DNA from: Ignavibacteriota bacterium
GTDB taxonomy: Bacteria; Bacteroidota; Ignavibacteria; UBA10030; SZUA-254
DNA length: 64,000 bases
NCBI GenBank assembly: GCA_025358305.1
Contig: JANYJZ010000002.1
Coordinates: 1-64,000, forward strand
Direction of reading: 5' to 3'
This document shows positions 11,674 to 19,438 of the stretch, one piece after another. Both the position numbers and the translations under genes were made by a program. The notes beneath the pieces were generated by a model. The model ran no database searches. It saw only the letters and a program-made list of their open reading frames with translations, and had not been told where the DNA came from. Position 1 is the stretch's first letter, and the number at the start of each line of letters is the position of its first letter.

Positions 11674-14600
11674 TCACCGCATGAGCATCATCTTCTTGAC
11701 CGCGGTGAAGCGCTCCGACTGCATCTTGTAGATATAGACGCCGCTCGGGAGCGCCGAAGCGTCGAAGACCGCAGAGTGGAATCCCGCTTCCTGCGTGCCG
11801 TTGACAACGCTTGCGACCTCGTTACCGAGGATGTTGTAGATCTTGATCGTGACGAACCCTGCGACAGGGAGCTCGTACGAGATCGTTGTCGAGGGGTTGA
11901 ACGGGTTCGGATAGTTCTGCTGGAGCGCGAACTCCTTCGGCAGCACCGGATCGGAGTAGGAGATCGTCAGCGTCCGTTCGCCGGCGCCCGAGCCGGAGAG
12001 CGTCAGTCTTCCGTTCGGCGCCATGTCGACGGGCGATCCCGCCTCATCGGTGATCGTGTACCGGCGCTTGTCGGCTCCGAGGATGTTCCACCGGACGATG
12101 ACCGGGTTGTCGACAGGGGTCACCCGAACGACGAGTGAGTGAGCTTCGGAGGCGGGACTCACCGTCTCGACCATCATACCCGAGGCGAACCGGGCGTCGA
12201 AGCTCCCCGCCGGCGGCGCCGGAGGCATCATGGTCACTGCACGGCCGGCTGCGCCCGCCTCACCGAAGTAGAGCGTTTGTCCGTTCTTTGCACCGTCCTC
12301 CAGTGTAATCGTGTTGAGCCCGTCGAACATCGACCGCGCCGACTGTTTCGGCAGCGCGGAGGGGCCCGCATGCATCAGGACCGACCCGGAGGCGTTCGCA
12401 TGCACAAAATAGCCTTTTCCTGGCCGCAGGCTGTCGGCGATCGCGAACCCGGTCGTATACTCGAAGAACGGGGACGACAGGATGCCCAGAGGCACCGTGG
12501 AAACGCTGGCAGTGGCGACCGGATCAGAGACCGCCCCGACCATGTTCCAGCCGCTGGCGACCGGGATCGTGTCGGAGGTGAACGTGTACCCGTCGATCGT
12601 GACGATCTGAGCCGACGGAAACTTCATCCAGTACCCTGACCTGTTCTTCAGCGTATCCTTCTGGACGTACATTGCGCCGTTGAAGGACCAGGCCGGCGAG
12701 GAGGCCGTCGGATAGAGTGACGTTTTGAGGAAGGTGAACGGACGCACCGGGAGAGAGACGATGTTCCAGCGGCTATGGACGTTGACCCCAAACGGCATCC
12801 GCGTTCCGACGTGGAGGTCGACTTGGGTCACGACGGGACCGGTGGACGTATCGTTGCTCGCAACCGTGACGAGCGTCGTGTAGTCGCCGACCGGCTGCGA
12901 GACGGCGTTGAACGTCATGATGGCTCGGGCGCTGTCGCCCGGAGGGATCGTGCCGTCGGTGTCGTTCACCGTCATCCAGACGGGGAAGTTCCCCGCGTTG
13001 TCCTTCATGACGTAGGCCAGAGGCGAGAACCCGGTGTTGTGGATCGTGATCGTATCGGCGCCCACGGCGCCGGAGTCCACGTCCACCACCACGTATGACG
13101 GCGAGGTGCCGATCTTTGGCCCGAGCGTGTGCAAGGTGAAGGGGAGGATGACCGGGCTCGCCGCGCCGGAAAGCGTGACGTTCGTCGAGAAGGTGGTCCA
13201 CTGCGTCAGTCCCGCCGCGTTGATCGTGTAGTGGAAGTAGGCGGAATCCAGCGGCGCCACGCTCCCGGAGTCCTCGGCGAGCGAGATCCAGGAGAGGGTC
13301 GTGTCGTACGCGAGGTGGTAGTTCAGCGTCGTGTCGCCGGTGTTCGCGACGCGGATCGAATCGAGTTTCACGCCGCCCGGCAGAAGCGAGAGGGTGACCG
13401 AGGACGGCGTGGTGGTCACGATCGGGCCGATCGAGGGGACGTTTCCGCTCATGACGATCGAGAAGTTCTGCGCTCCGCCCGAGAGGGAGCCCTTGTGCGT
13501 CACCCGTACGGTGTAGACGGCGCGCTCCGGGGAGGCGATATAGACCTGCTCGACGTTGTCGCGGAAGTTGTCGCCGGTCGTGGCCGCCGCGGTCGGGTTC
13601 GTCGGGTCGAGGATCCAGGGCTGGTACGTCGTGAGGTCCTTCTTTTTGATGATCCGCACGTCGAGGTCGTTGATCAAGAGGAGTGTCGTCGGGTTGAGGG
13701 AGGCGGGGAGCGCCGTGTGCGCCGGGTCGACCCAGGCGATCGTTGCCTTGAGGGGCTGCGTGCCGTCGGAGCTGATGTCGAACTGCACGCTTGTTCCCTG
13801 GTTGAGGACGATCTCCCGGATGTGCGAGCCGCTTCCCTGTGCGCTGTCGAGGGTCATGAGCTGTGCGGCGTGGAGGGTGTTCATGACACCCCAGCCGTAG
13901 ACATAATCGGGTCCGGTGCTCGGACCTGCTTCGTCGGCCGTGTTGACGATGATCGCCTTCATCGTGGAGGAGCGAAGTGGGGTCGAGCCATGGAGGTTCT
14001 GCTGGAGCTGGAGGAGGAGGCCTATCGAGCCGGTGACGTTCGGGGTCGCCATCGATGTGCCGGAAAAGACGCCGTACGCGTTGTTGGCCGTCTCCACCGA
14101 GGAGGTGAGGCCGACGCCGTTCCCGCAGATGTCGGGCTTGATCCGGCCGTCATCCGTCGGTCCCCAAGAGCTGAAGCTCGACATGATGACGCCCGCCGGG
14201 TTGACGTAACCGCCTGTCATGTCGTCGATCGCGCCGACGGTGAGGATATTCTTCCCCACGCCCGCGCCGTTGATGCAGTCATAACCGCCGAGTCTGCCGT
14301 CTCTGGACCGCGCCTTGGAGGAGAGGGTTTGAACGCCGTTCTTGAAGAACCAGTGCAGCACCGCGCCCGACGGACCTTCGTTCCTGTCGTTTCCTGCGGC
14401 CTTGCAGATGAGGTAGTTGGGGTTCGTTTCGGCGACGCCGTCCCAGTTCTCGGCCTCGGAGTTGTAGAAGCCGAACCCGTAGTCCTCCGTTTCGCTCACC
14501 GAGCTGTCGCCGAACCAGACCCACTTGTTGTCGTTGAAGTAGTTGAACGTCCAGCCGGTGATGAGGCCGTACGAGTGGTTGGACGTCTTGAGTCCCGCGA

Positions 14601-15150
14601 TCGCCTCGTTGTTCATTTCGATGACGTCGTTGGTCCATTCGTGGGAGATGAGCGTCGCCTGGTTCGCCATGCCGTGCGCGGCCGCGTTGACGCCGGTCGC
14701 GATCATCGTTCCGGCGACGTGCGTGGAGTGGGCGCTGAGGGAGGCGAGATCGGCGGCGGTGACCCGGCCGGTGAGCTCCTGATGGGTCGTCAGGACCTTC
14801 CCGCCGTCCCATTCGCCGAGGAGGACGCCCAGGCCGCTCAGGGCGTAGCCGAAGCCGGCCCCGGACCAGAGCTTGTTCGAAGAGATCGTCTTGGCGGCAT
14901 TGAGGTTTTCGGTGATATAATATCGCGGTATGCCGCGCTCGATCCGCATGAGTTCAAAGATGGTCCCGTCTGGGCGTTCGACCCGGATCGGCAGCTGTTG
15001 CACCAAGGCGACCGAATCCGCCTCCGTCTTCTGCATCTGCATCCGGTGCGACACCTCCTGCACCTGGAACGGCAGATGTTTTTGCGAGAAGAGGCTCCCG
15101 GGGAGGAGAATGAGCAGAATGACGAGTAAACGTGATAGCGAAGTTCGCAT
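11674..15150 (-). CDS. Secreted subtilisin-like serine protease (S8) with T9SS-type tail
   Basis: An 1158-residue exported protease. After a signal peptide (about 1-22) and a short pro-region comes an S8 domain at roughly residues 95-440. Catalytic residues by motif are D115 (GEWDGG), H144 (HSTHVAGT), N254 (AAGNDRN, oxyanion) and S366 (SGTSMATP). Next are a galactose-binding-like P-domain region and repeated Ig-like/abnormal-spindle-type beta modules around 590-790 (two similar stretches with TDTITIHNTGFSPL and DSIRVANTGDTTL). The protein ends in a 'NYPNPFNPSTTISYELP' sorting domain that finishes with IYKMQSERFTAVKKMMLM. It is probably a surface-bound or released protease secreted by a type IX system. 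It is a single-gene unit with its own promoter. Confidence 0.95.
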   Translation of the reverse strand: MRTSLSRLLVILLILLPGSLFSQKHLPFQVQEVSHRMQMQKTEADSVALVQQLPIRVERPDGTIFELMRIERGIPRYYITENLNAAKTISSNKLWSGAGFGYALSGLGVLLGEWDGGKVLTTHQELTGRVTAADLASLSAHSTHVAGTMIATGVNAAAHGMANQATLISHEWTNDVIEMNNEAIAGLKTSNHSYGLITGWTFNYFNDNKWVWFGDSSVSETEDYGFGFYNSEAENWDGVAETNPNYLICKAAGNDRNEGPSGAVLHWFFKNGVQTLSSKARSRDGRLGGYDCINGAGVGKNILTVGAIDDMTGGYVNPAGVIMSSFSSWGPTDDGRIKPDICGNGVGLTSSVETANNAYGVFSGTSMATPNVTGSIGLLLQLQQNLHGSTPLRSSTMKAIIVNTADEAGPSTGPDYVYGWGVMNTLHAAQLMTLDSAQGSGSHIREIVLNQGTSVQFDISSDGTQPLKATIAWVDPAHTALPASLNPTTLLLINDLDVRIIKKKDLTTYQPWILDPTNPTAAATTGDNFRDNVEQVYIASPERAVYTVRVTHKGSLSGGAQNFSIVMSGNVPSIGPIVTTTPSSVTLSLLPGGVKLDSIRVANTGDTTLNYHLAYDTTLSWISLAEDSGSVAPLDSAYFHYTINAAGLTQWTTFSTNVTLSGAASPVILPFTLHTLGPKIGTSPSYVVVDVDSGAVGADTITIHNTGFSPLAYVMKDNAGNFPVWMTVNDTDGTIPPGDSARAIMTFNAVSQPVGDYTTLVTVASNDTSTGPVVTQVDLHVGTRMPFGVNVHSRWNIVSLPVRPFTFLKTSLYPTASSPAWSFNGAMYVQKDTLKNRSGYWMKFPSAQIVTIDGYTFTSDTIPVASGWNMVGAVSDPVATASVSTVPLGILSSPFFEYTTGFAIADSLRPGKGYFVHANASGSVLMHAGPSALPKQSARSMFDGLNTITLEDGAKNGQTLYFGEAGAAGRAVTMMPPAPPAGSFDARFASGMMVETVSPASEAHSLVVRVTPVDNPVIVRWNILGADKRRYTITDEAGSPVDMAPNGRLTLSGSGAGERTLTISYSDPVLPKEFALQQNYPNPFNPSTTISYELPVAGFVTIKIYNILGNEVASVVNGTQEAGFHSAVFDASALPSGVYIYKMQSERFTAVKKMMLMR

Positions 15151-15261: not shown

Positions 15262-15292
15262 TTGATTATCTGAGGAAAATATCGTATTTTGG
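15262..15292 (+). promoter_or_regulatory. Predicted promoter of the polysaccharide block
   Basis: TTG at 15262-15264, exactly 20 bases, then TATTTTGG at 15285-15292, with the GT2 start codon 22 bases beyond. It heads the long rightward series of envelope genes. Confidence 0.62.
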
Positions 15293-15313
15293 CACACACC
15301 ATATGGGAACTGA

Positions 15314-16885
15314 ATGAGCGATCAAGAGCAGGAATTTCAACCAAAACCACCGGAATCAACTCCTTCCACGCCAGAACCTTCGCAGGCGCCCGAACAGCCA
15401 TCCATGCAGAGCGCGCCGATGGACGCTCCCGAGTCGTCCGAGCGGCCCGCCGCACCAGACCAGCCGGGACAGCCGGGCCAGCAGTCCCAGAGGCCGCCGC
15501 AGCAACGGGAACGGCGTGACCGGTTCCAGCGGGGCCGTCGGCCCCAGCGCGGCCGCCAGGGCGATTCCCAGGAAGGACGTGAAGGCCAGGGCGATCCTCA
15601 GGAAGGACGTGACCGCCAGGGCGATTCTCAGGAAGGACGTGAACGGCAGGGCGGCATTCCAGGGGGAGGGCGCGTACGTCAAGGCGGGTGGCAGGACGGG
15701 CGCGAACGGACCGAACCGCTCCAGCAGTCCGAGGGACAGACCGAACCGCAGGAACAGCCCGAGGGACAGACCGAACCGCAGGAACAGCCCGAGCGGCAGA
15801 CGGAACCTCGGGGTCCGCGTGAACGCCGGGACGACTCCCGCGGTCAGCGCGAACGCCGGGAAGGGTCCCGGGACCAGCGTGAACGCCGCGACGACTCCCG
15901 CGGTCAGCGCGAACGCCGCGACGATTACCAGGGCGGCCGCGATACCGGCGGAGCCAGAGAACTTTCCATCGTCATCCCCCTCTATAATGAGGAGCAGTCG
16001 CTCCGCGAGCTCTATGACGATATCCGGTCGGCCCTGAGCCGCATCAACCGGTATGAGATCATCTTCGTCGACGACGGCAGCACCGACAACTCTTCGCGCG
16101 TCCTCCAAGACATCCGTCAGCGCGACAAGGCCCGAATCAAGATCATCCGCTTCCGCCGTAACTTCGGCAAATCCGCGGCCCTCGCCGCCGGCTTCGCGCT
16201 CGCCCAGGGAAGCATCGTCATCACGATGGACGCCGACCTTCAGGATGACCCCGCGGAGATCCCAAGCCTCATGAACGAGATCAAGCGGGGATCCGACCTC
16301 GTCTCCGGCTGGAAGAAGAAGCGGAAGGACCCCATCACGAAGACGATCCCGTCGCGGTTCTTCAACTTCGTCACGGGCCTCCTCACCGGCATCAAGATCC
16401 ACGATTTCAACTGCGGCCTCAAGGCCTACCGGAAAGAGGTCGTCAAAGAGGTGCGCATCTACGGGGAGCTCCACCGTTACATCCCGGTGCTCGCCCACTG
16501 GCTCGGCTACAAGATCAGCGAAGTTCCCGTTCGGCATCGGCCCCGGCGCTTCGGCAAGACGAAGTTCGGCATCGGCCGTTTCTGGAAGGGGTTCCTCGAT
16601 CTGCTGACGGTCCTGTTCACCACCCGGTACCTCCAGCGGCCCCTGCACCTCTTCGGTTTCTGGGGTGCCGTCTTCTTCCTCTGGGGACTGGCGATCGATG
16701 GCTATCTCGTGTACCTCAAGCTCTACGAGGGCGCATCGCTGAGCAACCGCCCCCTCTTCACCGGCGGCATCCTCTTCATCATCGTGGGGATCCAGTTCAT
16801 CTCCGTCGGACTTCTCGGGGAGATGATCTCGAAGACGCGGCAGTCGGGCGAAGAACAATATTCCATACGGGAAACCTGGAAATAG
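15314..16885 (+). CDS. Family 2 glycosyltransferase with long disordered repeat N-terminus
   Basis: A 523-residue protein with two parts. Residues 1 to about 213 are low-complexity, rich in Q, E, R, G and P, and built from decapeptide repeats. From about 215 a GT-A domain begins (ELSIVIPLYNEEQSLRELYD), with the metal-binding MDADLQDDP and the HRPRRFGKTKFG stretch typical of dolichol-/undecaprenyl-phosphate sugar transferases, followed by two C-terminal membrane segments (about 440-500). Such enzymes load a sugar onto polyprenyl phosphate at the inner membrane for lipid-linked glycan assembly. The next gene, a GT39-like transferase, uses exactly such donors. The hydrophilic extension of about 200 residues is unusual for this family. 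Confidence 0.9.
   Translation: MSDQEQEFQPKPPESTPSTPEPSQAPEQPSMQSAPMDAPESSERPAAPDQPGQPGQQSQRPPQQRERRDRFQRGRRPQRGRQGDSQEGREGQGDPQEGRDRQGDSQEGRERQGGIPGGGRVRQGGWQDGRERTEPLQQSEGQTEPQEQPEGQTEPQEQPERQTEPRGPRERRDDSRGQRERREGSRDQRERRDDSRGQRERRDDYQGGRDTGGARELSIVIPLYNEEQSLRELYDDIRSALSRINRYEIIFVDDGSTDNSSRVLQDIRQRDKARIKIIRFRRNFGKSAALAAGFALAQGSIVITMDADLQDDPAEIPSLMNEIKRGSDLVSGWKKKRKDPITKTIPSRFFNFVTGLLTGIKIHDFNCGLKAYRKEVVKEVRIYGELHRYIPVLAHWLGYKISEVPVRHRPRRFGKTKFGIGRFWKGFLDLLTVLFTTRYLQRPLHLFGFWGAVFFLWGLAIDGYLVYLKLYEGASLSNRPLFTGGILFIIVGIQFISVGLLGEMISKTRQSGEEQYSIRETWK
15556..15937 (+). repeat. Three sets of 30-bp tandem repeats inside the GT2 gene
   Basis: Three different 30-bp units follow one another: QGDSQEGREG-type units from about 15556 to 15645, QPEGQTEPQE-type units at 15725-15814 (the first two are nearly identical), and RERRDDSRGQ-type units at 15818-15937 (four copies). 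All keep the frame. The shared unit length of 10 codons suggests repeated slippage-type expansion in a disordered segment. Confidence 0.85.
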
Positions 16886-16895
16886 CTCCTCCTCA

Positions 16896-18353
16896 ATGAG
16901 CAAAACGCGCGCTTCGTCACGCCGTACCCGGGGGGTGAACGTCTCTGCGGGGAACTGGGCTCCCGGAACGGAACGGATCGTTGTCGGCGCGCTCGCCCTT
17001 ATCGCCATCGCCGTGCGGTACTACGCCGTCTCATTTCATCCGCTCGTGGCGTGGGACGGGGCCTACTACATCAACTACTTCCGCGATCCAAGCTGGCGGT
17101 GGGTCTTTCCGCCCGGCTACCCTCTCGCCATCGAGTTCTTCCGGTTCTTCGTCGCCGACCCTGTGCTCGCCGCGCAGTACGCCTCCGTCTTCTTCGGCGG
17201 GCTCCTGGTGGTCCCGCTCTTCGTCGTCGCCCGGGAGTTCCTCGACTCCCGCGCCGCGCTTGCCGCCACCGTCATCGCCGTGTTCAACCCTCTCATGATC
17301 CGGTACGGGGCCATGGCGATGTCGGAATCGCAGTTCATCTTCTTCGCCGTGACGGCGTTCGCATGCTACCGGCTACGGTACCATGTATTGTTCGGTGCGG
17401 CGTGCGGCATCGCATACCTGACGCGGCCCGAGGCGCTCCTCTTCTTCGTCCTCATCCTCGGGTACGACGCCTGGAAGCGCCACGATGTGAAGTTCATCGC
17501 CTTTGCCGCTGCGGGGCTCCTTCTGTTCGCGCTCCCGTACATCATCTCCCTGCGCGTTGAGACCGGGACCTGGTCCCTCTCGCCGAAGAGCGATAACCTG
17601 CGCGCCTGGGACGTCGACTGGCGTGCGAACCTTGCCCGGGAAGCACTCGCCCCGGCCGCCCCGACCCCTTCGACGGGCCAGGCGGTCCTGACCTCGCTCT
17701 CGTATTACCCGGAGCACTTTCTCGCCCACGGTGCGAACCTCCTGACCTACGCCGGAGTTCCTGTGCTGGCCGCCGGCCTCTACGGCATCGCCCGGCACCG
17801 GAACATTCTCATGGCAGGGCTCGTCATGTTCCTCCTCTTGCCGTTCTTCGGCCTGAACCCATTCTCCCGGTTCGTGCTGCCCTATATCCCGTTCCTGGCG
17901 GTCTTTGCACTCCTTGCGCTGCGGCACATCCCGAAAGCGGAGTTCTTCTATCTTAGTGTGCTTGTCTGCGTGCTCGGCACCGTGCCGACGCTGTCGGAGA
18001 TCCAGAAGCAGGACGATGACATGATCGAACTCAAGACCGCCGCGCTCGCGATCAAATCCCGCGTCGCGCCGGGCGACATTTTCCTCGACCGGAAACCGTA
18101 CACCGCCTTTTATGCGGACGGGCGGTATACGCAGATCCCGAATGAACCGGTCGACACCATCCTCGCATTCGCAAAGAGGGCCGGCGCGCGGTTCCTCGTC
18201 CTGGGGGAGAGGGTGGTCTACGTGTTCCGTCCCCAGCTCAAGCCGATCCTCTACGGCAAGGAGCCGGCGCTCGCCGCCAAGGGACTCACGACGATCTACG
18301 TCGACGCGCTGCAAACTGGAAGAGGAGTACGAATCTTGGAGATCAACAAATGA
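16896..18353 (+). CDS. GT39-like polytopic glycosyltransferase
   Basis: A 485-residue membrane protein with about ten hydrophobic segments. After the first one is the acidic WDGAYYINYF, followed by WVFPPGYPLAIEFF, as in the first periplasmic loop of ArnT/PMT-type (GT39/GT83) transferases that use polyprenyl-phosphate sugars. A small soluble domain follows the membrane part (from about 370) and ends in GRGVRILEINK. It likely transfers a sugar from the carrier made by the preceding GT2 onto an envelope acceptor. It starts 11 bases after the GT2 stop and overlaps the next gene by four bases (ATGA). Confidence 0.82.
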   Translation: MSKTRASSRRTRGVNVSAGNWAPGTERIVVGALALIAIAVRYYAVSFHPLVAWDGAYYINYFRDPSWRWVFPPGYPLAIEFFRFFVADPVLAAQYASVFFGGLLVVPLFVVAREFLDSRAALAATVIAVFNPLMIRYGAMAMSESQFIFFAVTAFACYRLRYHVLFGAACGIAYLTRPEALLFFVLILGYDAWKRHDVKFIAFAAAGLLLFALPYIISLRVETGTWSLSPKSDNLRAWDVDWRANLAREALAPAAPTPSTGQAVLTSLSYYPEHFLAHGANLLTYAGVPVLAAGLYGIARHRNILMAGLVMFLLLPFFGLNPFSRFVLPYIPFLAVFALLALRHIPKAEFFYLSVLVCVLGTVPTLSEIQKQDDDMIELKTAALAIKSRVAPGDIFLDRKPYTAFYADGRYTQIPNEPVDTILAFAKRAGARFLVLGERVVYVFRPQLKPILYGKEPALAAKGLTTIYVDALQTGRGVRILEINK

Positions 18354-19438
18354 AACTTACGGTGAACGACCTGAAACGCGACTGCCGTTCGTTCCGCGGC
18401 GACCTACCCTGCAAACCGCACAAGGAACACGGCGTCCACTGCGTCGACGCGAACGGGAAGGACTGCACGCACTACGACCCCGTGCGCAAACGGATCCTCA
18501 TCGTCAAACTTGGGGCCCTCGGCGACGTCATCCGGACGACGACGCTCCTCCGAAAGATCAAGAAGGACGAGCCCCAAGCCGAGATCTGGTGGCTGACGCT
18601 CTCGCCCGACGTGCTGCCGAAGGGGATCGACGTCGTCCTGGCGTTCACGCCGCAGAGCTTGGCGACGCTGGAGGCGGTGAGCTTCGACGCCCTCTACAAC
18701 CTCGACAAGGAAAAGGAGGCGTGCGCGCTCACATCGAAGATCTCCGCAACCGTCAAGAAGGGGTTCACGCTCGTTGACGGGAAGGCCGCGCCGATCGACC
18801 GGGACGCGGAGCACAAGTATCTCACGGGCGTCTTCGACGACCTGAGCAAGGCGAACACGAAGAGCTATCAGGAGGAGATCTTCGAGATCTGCGGCTATCG
18901 GTTCGCCGGCGAGACCTACATGATGCCCGAACTTGGTACGTTCGCCTGGAAGCTCCCGAAGAAGAAGCGGATCATCGGGCTCAACACCGGCTGCGGCGGC
19001 CGCTGGACCTCCAGGCTCTGGCCCGAGGAGTACTGGTCTAAGCTCGCCAAACAGCTCAAGAAGGCGGGATACGTCCCGCTCCTCCTCGGCGGCGAACTGG
19101 AGCATGAGAAGAACGTCCGTCTTGCGAAAAAGAGCGGCGCCCTCTACCTGGGGCATTTTCCCCTGAAGCAGTTCCTGAGCGAGATGAACCAGTGCGAGCT
19201 CGTCGTCACCGCGGTGACGATGGGGATGCACTTCGCCATCGGACTGGAGAAGAAGATCGTGCTCTTCAATAACATCTTCAACAAGCATGAGTTCGAGCTC
19301 TACGGGAAGGGGGAGATCCTCGAGCCGGATTTCGAGTGTGACTGCTTTTACGCCCCGATCTGCCCGAACGACTGCATGCAGTACCTTGAGGTGAAGACCG
19401 TGTTCGATTCCTGCACTCGGCTCCTCAAGAAGAAGTAG
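18350..19438 (+). CDS. Family 9 glycosyltransferase with cysteine clusters at both ends
   Basis: The 362-residue protein has a GT9 (heptosyltransferase-like) core: RILIVKLGALGDVIRTTTLLRKIK from residue 48, and a second Rossmann half with NTGCGGRWTSRLWPEEYWSKLAKQL and PLLLGGE. Outside the core are cysteines at C12, C21, C31 and C39 in the N-terminal 40 residues, and C330, C332, C338, C342 and C355 at the C-terminus (DCFYAPICPNDC). They could bind zinc or an Fe-S centre or form disulfides, which is unusual for GT9. It overlaps the GT39-like gene by four bases and is probably a cytoplasmic, membrane-associated enzyme of surface glycan synthesis. Acceptor and sugar are unknown. Confidence 0.85.
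   Translation: MKLTVNDLKRDCRSFRGDLPCKPHKEHGVHCVDANGKDCTHYDPVRKRILIVKLGALGDVIRTTTLLRKIKKDEPQAEIWWLTLSPDVLPKGIDVVLAFTPQSLATLEAVSFDALYNLDKEKEACALTSKISATVKKGFTLVDGKAAPIDRDAEHKYLTGVFDDLSKANTKSYQEEIFEICGYRFAGETYMMPELGTFAWKLPKKKRIIGLNTGCGGRWTSRLWPEEYWSKLAKQLKKAGYVPLLLGGELEHEKNVRLAKKSGALYLGHFPLKQFLSEMNQCELVVTAVTMGMHFAIGLEKKIVLFNNIFNKHEFELYGKGEILEPDFECDCFYAPICPNDCMQYLEVKTVFDSCTRLLKKK

Follow-up and report, generated by a model that had tools for sequence, protein, structure and literature searches.

The glycosyltransferase gene and its neighbourhood

The window, that is the whole 64,000-nucleotide stretch of Ignavibacteriota DNA that was analysed, encodes a glycosyltransferase (GT2) with a long N-terminal arm, and the following features are found at and around its gene:

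11674-15150, reverse strand: subtilase with a type IX sorting domain at its C-terminus; its gene faces the GT2 operon
15262..15291, forward strand: promoter-like element TTG-N20-TATTTTG, from counts of the pattern in family upstream regions against shuffles
15314..16885, forward strand: whole open reading frame (ORF), arm plus GT2, 523 aa with an ATG start
15959..16882, forward strand: ArnC/GtrB-type GT2 catalytic and membrane part, residues 216-523, from domain, profile and fold matches
16646..16843, forward strand: two long C-terminal helices, residues 445-472 and 479-510, in the AlphaFold2 model and at the place of the GtrB membrane helices
16896..18353, forward strand: GT-C-like gene (PMT_2, below the cut-off), with a homologue in one of 12 family neighbourhoods
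18350..19438, forward strand: GT9 (heptosyltransferase-like), following the GT2 gene in the same orientation in 11 of 12 family neighbourhoods

PF00535 is matched at residues 218-380 (1e-36), corresponding to the GT2 GT-A domain, and the best solved relatives by sequence are ArnC (5e-53), GtrB and DPMS, an order which Foldseek reproduces. The two C-terminal helices fall within a fold match of 302-322 columns to ArnC/GtrB chains and are predicted membrane helices; two C-terminal membrane helices likewise characterise the GtrB architecture (PMC4728340). The DxD-like metal site, T304-M-D-A-D-L-Q-D-D-P313, is invariant in 16 aligned sequences and aligns with a like stretch of ArnC and GtrB. In GtrB, D157, R122 and R200 have been named as the catalytic Asp and the acceptor Arg residues, and the invariant alignment columns D364, R337 and R411 are, by their invariance, candidates for the corresponding positions. 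On the basis of these sequence and model matches, the enzyme is classed as an ArnC/GtrB-type polyprenyl-phosphate glycosyltransferase. Its score against the ArnC equivalog PRK10714 is 207.2 bits, below the cut-off of 529, and because the equivalog cut-offs are missed the transferred sugar is not predicted.

Aside from the GT9 gene, YfhO-like, GT4-like and WecB-like genes occur further downstream in eight, nine and six of the 12 family neighbourhoods, respectively, while a GT-C-like gene stands directly behind the GT2 gene in one and a subtilase homologue lies upstream on the opposite strand in eight (one of them a short partial match), all of these counts being lower bounds as some stretches end at contig ends. 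The domain matches, the AlphaFold2 model and the neighbourhoods thus bear out the description, given in an earlier note on this DNA, of a normal GT2 whose disordered arm is expanded by repeats and which heads a polysaccharide gene cluster, the cluster being partly conserved. In the GT9 protein (window 18350-19438), a Cys/His-rich N-terminal segment, CRSFRGDLPCKPHKEHGVHC...CTHY, precedes the glycosyltransferase part and is possibly a metal site.

Start codon and reading frame

The start at 15314 is firm. An in-frame TGA immediately precedes this ATG, and 22 bases separate it from the end of the promoter-like element, which occupies a similar position in most family members. In its strict form the TTG-N20-TATTTTG pattern is present in 10 of 13 family upstream regions (the window included) and in its loose form in 12 of 13, as compared to 1% of shuffled upstream regions; it is also found at 11 of 62 other class loci. 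The pattern resembles the -33/-7 promoter type of the Bacteroidota. A sigma-70 scan yielded no site. The arm begins with M-x-[DE]-Q in nine of the 13 family members (the exceptions being L009, L012, L013 and L014), and codon position 3 is the most-changed position of the arm in nine of 11 congeneric pairs, the pairs L126/L128 and L123/L130 being the exceptions. A later true start near 15930, named beforehand as the finding that would overturn the translated arm, is contradicted by the stop before the ATG, the conserved promoter-like pattern, the shared arm N-terminus and the codon-position pattern. A four-codon frame, ATGGGAACTGAATGA, at window positions 15303-15317 overlaps the GT2 start, with similar overlaps in L007 and L009, and is perhaps a purine-rich ribosome site only.

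Composition of the arm and its three tandem arrays

The arm itself contains the following features, all on the forward strand:

15314..15448: acidic head, residues 1-45, net charge per residue -0.16
15506..15559: Arg/aromatic patch RERRDRFQRGRRPQRGRQ, residues 65-82, net charge per residue +0.39
15554..15653: array A, 30 bp x 3.3, RQGDSQEGRE, Tandem Repeats Finder (TRF) score 165
15709..15807: array B, 30 bp x 3.3, QTEPQEQPEG, TRF score 142
15812..15924: array C, 30 bp x 3.8, GQRERRDDSR, TRF score 149

The arrays are in frame, with units of 10 residues, and the base identity at a lag of 30 over 15521-15943 is 0.66; TRF detects one single further array (score 59) in the rest of the window. The three 30-bp arrays reported ahead of a normal polyprenyl-phosphate GT2 are thus confirmed by TRF and the domain match. 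The arm had further been described as about 210 disordered, repeat-built residues, of which the disorder stands, with AlphaFold2 pLDDT values below 50 and no secondary structure at residues 1-7, 12-38 and 40-211 and a mostly confident fold C-terminal of residue 211. The repeat-built character applies to part of the arm: the repeats encode only approximately residues 81-205, and residues 1-80 are non-repeat and match the shorter arm of relatives in length and make-up.

Per residue, arrays A, B and C carry a net charge of -0.04, -0.21 and +0.09, so that A and C are nearly charge-balanced and B is acidic. In the repeat part, charge mixing is slightly above the level of shuffled sequences (z -1.8), a mild difference, and well-mixed charged chains are expected from polymer physics to behave as expanded spacers. 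The proposal that the repeat segment is of an RNA-binding type does not agree with these values, since the repeat part is not net basic; its link to RNA binding is weak because the basic part of the arm, residues 65-82, lies ahead of the repeats. With two arrays nearly balanced and one acidic, the patch, rather than the repeats, is the better candidate for binding. A function of the repeats as RNA structure is not supported, as 19 of 20 shuffled sequences reach an equal or better fold (z +1.58). Nor do the arrays behave as a mobile or dispersed repeat: the array DNA gives only short non-self matches in its own genome (E 0.098 or worse), in which the arm, used as a protein query, finds no other matching place. 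Synonymous and non-synonymous changes within the arrays are too few in number for use.

Across the class, the arm appears from its sequence to follow a loose grammar, in which an acidic head is followed by an Arg/aromatic patch and then by a Q/P/E-rich spacer. As a positional alignment of the arms is meaningful only for close pairs, order and composition were evaluated in 53 non-redundant class arms with 500 composition-keeping shuffles. Aromatic residues have 2.03 K/R within three residues as compared to 1.17 in shuffles (z 11.6), net charge over 15 residues peaks at 6.2 versus 4.6 (z 11.1), and residues 2-13 carry a net charge of -1.8 versus +0.7 (z -9.6); the acidic start may in part reflect a general bias of gene starts. 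Basic and often aromatic patches are found across the listed class arms. In the window the repeats sit between the patch and the enzyme and add approximately 110-125 residues, and the patch-to-enzyme distance is 135 aa, as compared to 9-23 aa in eight of the ten other listed family members and 56 aa in L016. In L012, with an arm of 218 residues, the scan picked no basic patch; by eye, this arm has an Arg/Ser/Asp-type repetition of its own, unlike that of the window, and includes one TRF array of period 45.

Distribution of the arm

An orthologue was found in 13 of the 15 family genomes (the window's own included, and one match partial), and all 13 orthologues bear an arm, of 64-218 aa; the two genomes without an orthologue match are 83% and 61% complete. 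Within the class, the enzyme is matched at E 1e-90 or better in 275 of 294 genomes, once in each except for G066, which has two matches. Arms of at least 35 aa are present at 59 of 75 chosen class loci and shorter ones at 11, these loci being no random sample but made up of 35 best hits and 40 picked from the matches listed, long frames included. Sixteen of the 75 were left out of the arm statistics, namely the 11 short arms and L120, L137, L139, L152 and L155, where the mechanically called start ran into an unrelated upstream frame; the kept arms of L119, L121-L123 and L130 also seem to start too early. Arm length at the class loci ranges from less than 10 to approximately 310 aa. The longest kept arms, of 256 and 310 aa, belong to L162 and L178, which are of the same genus, and carry degenerate RQDN/REPVVR repeats; the L162 arm contains a TRF array.

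In a sample of 118 genomes of the phylum (best match per genome), an open frame of at least 350 occurs in 23 of 29 class members as compared to 20 of 89 others. None of the 20 longest-frame loci outside the class has a convincing arm of this kind, these loci representing 20 of the 89 genomes; arms of up to approximately 40 aa are possible in the other 69. Two of the 20 loci, L221 and L233, are borderline by the cut-off of the group count given next (hydrophobic fractions of 0.31 and 0.30), and their extensions look like unrelated upstream frame with a later start just before the core. By record title, the near relatives are Ignavibacteria and unclassified Bacteroidetes. In a count with manual grouping by record title and a cut-off set after the data had been seen, a basic, hydrophobic-poor arm of at least 20 aa was present in 22 of 30 near relatives, five of nine Kapaibacterium/Chlorobi, none of six Balneola, four of 23 members of a mixed set that included KSB1 and Marinimicrobia among others, and none of 12 from other phyla. 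A few loci of other groups, e.g. L038 and L097, have an Arg-rich arm, and with a basic arm at some KSB1 and other loci the trait is not strictly confined to the class. Judged by this occurrence, the arm is no single-genome oddity and appears to be a standing, old trait of the class.

Similar stretches in other proteins

A basic, hydrophobic-poor stretch of 50 residues is encoded by three of 305 ORFs in 400 kb of one family member, the ORFs having been called mechanically at 120 aa or more, with genes cut by piece ends lost. Besides the GT2 enzyme, these encode an RNase E/G and a DUF6600 protein. Such a trait is thus uncommon in this stretch, and the company it keeps does not decide between membrane and RNA. 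The RNase E/G (L216:3133-4653, genome G011) has an S1 match followed by an acidic and then a basic stretch, probably disordered, and the DUF6600 protein (L201:11281-12483, reverse strand, G011) ends in an Arg-rich C-terminal tail. When the arm of a relative was compared with ten genomes, it matched itself and the arm of a congener and gave four weak matches (E 0.03-0.44).

The arm is not common to the other GT2 enzymes of the window's own genome, being absent from all five other GT2-like matches. In four of these, which lack a basic arm, the start lies 1-59 residues ahead of the match (the 59 residues of L004 are hydrophobic), and the fifth, L006, has 81 residues by its mechanical start that are unlike the arm. 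A like extension is lacking on the full Rho of this genome, and of its seven DEAD-type matches only L141 has a short basic tail at its end; the other six have no extension at the ends examined, some of their frames running off the locus. Besides the full rho there is a second Rho-like gene, which scores 423.8 bits, below the rho cut-off. The loci concerned are G000:C36:3987-5054 (L149) and G000:C42:88909-90147 (L148).

Selection and repeats across the class

The dN/dS of the arm is below 1 in all 11 congeneric pairs (0.09-0.66, median 0.144), while that of the core is 0.015-0.060 in the nine pairs with a value; with the arm well above the core, the constraint on the arm is modest. The value for L123/L130 is raised because these kept arms seem to start too early. 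Gap columns (4 to 54) occur in the arm of seven of the 11 pairs, the alignments of three pairs having been inspected by eye; in two of the seven the gap matches the difference in length and seems to reflect start-codon choice. TRF repeats with a score of at least 40 are found in 20 of 59 class arms versus three of 59 cores, mostly with approximately two copies, and the arm in the window scores highest among all 59. Local duplication has thus lengthened arms recurrently in the class.

Proposed function of the arm and alternative explanations

The reading we prefer, tentatively and at a little short of an even chance, is that the GT2 bears a class-wide disordered tether arm, made up of an acidic head, a candidate binding patch and a spacer, which has been lengthened by repeats in the window species. 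It is supported by the open and conserved frame and start, the predicted disorder, the order of the pieces, the class-wide occurrence and the purifying selection in other members. The enzyme would be membrane-bound and of the ArnC/GtrB type, with the disordered N-terminal arm in the cytosol. The patch would be a binding element, most likely for a polyanionic surface beside the enzyme, such as polyprenyl phosphate or the headgroups of anionic lipids on the cytosolic side, and less likely for RNA; the membrane is preferred as its target because of the location of the enzyme. The active site of GtrB lies approximately 15 A from the membrane, and its authors pose the question of how water-soluble and membrane substrates meet (PMC4728340). 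The acidic head might act as an intramolecular competitor for the patch. This role is proposed, and an RNA-based alternative is kept, because in Bacteroides thetaiotaomicron Rho (BtRho) short charged motifs of opposite sign in a bacterial disordered region can restrain each other (PMC13269538). The spacer may serve as an entropic tether, with in-frame duplications of the 30-bp unit having lengthened the distance between patch and enzyme by approximately 110-125 residues. The 30-bp copying probably adjusts a flexible tether, and growth of the spacer would be tolerated because composition, rather than sequence, is needed.

An alternative, which we consider somewhat unlikely, is that the arm is an inert tail on an enzyme tolerant of N-terminal additions; the arm, and above all its repeats, would then be near-neutral products of slippage, with selection acting solely on solubility and the absence of structure. 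The range of arm lengths among the class loci, from below 10 to approximately 310 aa, the excess of TRF repeats in arms over cores and an arm dN/dS well above that of the core are consistent with such a tail. However, the dN/dS remains below 1 in every pair, the order of acidic head, Arg/aromatic patch and spacer is non-random and the arm is retained at 59 of the 75 class loci. It is unlikely that the arm binds RNA or forms condensates in the manner of Bacteroides Rho, with the Arg-rich patch gathering RNA or ribosomes and the acidic head restraining it. The make-up of the patch from Arg and aromatic residues, the opposite charge blocks within one disordered region, as in BtRho (PMC13269538), and the similar stretch on the RNase E/G of a family member would fit this alternative, but the arm sits on a membrane enzyme, its repeats are not net basic and the full Rho of the same genome has no such extension. 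Docking to a protein partner of the same polysaccharide pathway, be it a flippase, a GT-C enzyme or the adjacent GT9, is improbable: although the GT9 gene follows the GT2 gene in 11 of 12 family neighbourhoods, the genome of the sole neighbourhood without it (L112) still encodes a long arm (L012), and the patches of different members resemble one another only loosely in sequence. That the region is an untranslated leader or the arrays are misassembled is hardly credible, for while short tandem arrays are prone to miscounted copies in assembly, the evidence for the start given above and the open arms in all 13 family orthologues stand against it, and miscounted copies would not explain the arms of relatives.

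The lipid carrier for surface glycans is loaded by polyprenyl-phosphate glycosyltransferases. A bolder proposal is rather unlikely at present: the GT2 would bear a class-wide disordered control arm of acidic head, Arg/aromatic anchor and spacer, tandem duplication would repeatedly reset the spacer length, and a repeat array would thereby tune where this enzyme, with which the assembly of surface glycans starts, is placed or how active it is. A class-wide arm with a candidate binder of anionic surfaces, occurring naturally with spacers both short and long, would make it possible to test directly whether enzymes of this type are regulated by tethering. A search of titles and abstract openings in the open-access literature, with subscription journals mostly outside its scope, returned no description of such an arm.

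Comparison with known systems

Bacteroides thetaiotaomicron belongs to the same phylum as the window organism. Its Rho likewise has a disordered addition to a conserved enzyme, with oppositely charged short motifs (PMC13269538). It differs in being an RNA-binding hexamer with a KE-rich part. Among the solved relatives, the ArnC entries (Salmonella 9asc and 9bhe, and also 9hwj) are the best Foldseek and phmmer matches of the window enzyme and are like its residues 215-507 in fold and sequence, with 32-33% identity (Foldseek). In 9hwj the match begins at chain residue 8, so that a long arm is absent from that ArnC. A disordered Arg-rich arm also goes unmentioned for GtrB in the available portion of PMC4728340. 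The GT-A domain, the juxtamembrane region and the two C-terminal membrane helices are common to the window enzyme and GtrB of Synechocystis (sll0501; 5eke, 5ekp and 9nyc). Although it is C-terminal, has a known target and shows no homology to the GT2 arm, the disordered linker of FtsZ offers a comparison in terms of how the arm may work, as in it an unstructured spacer joins a folded domain to a short element that binds.
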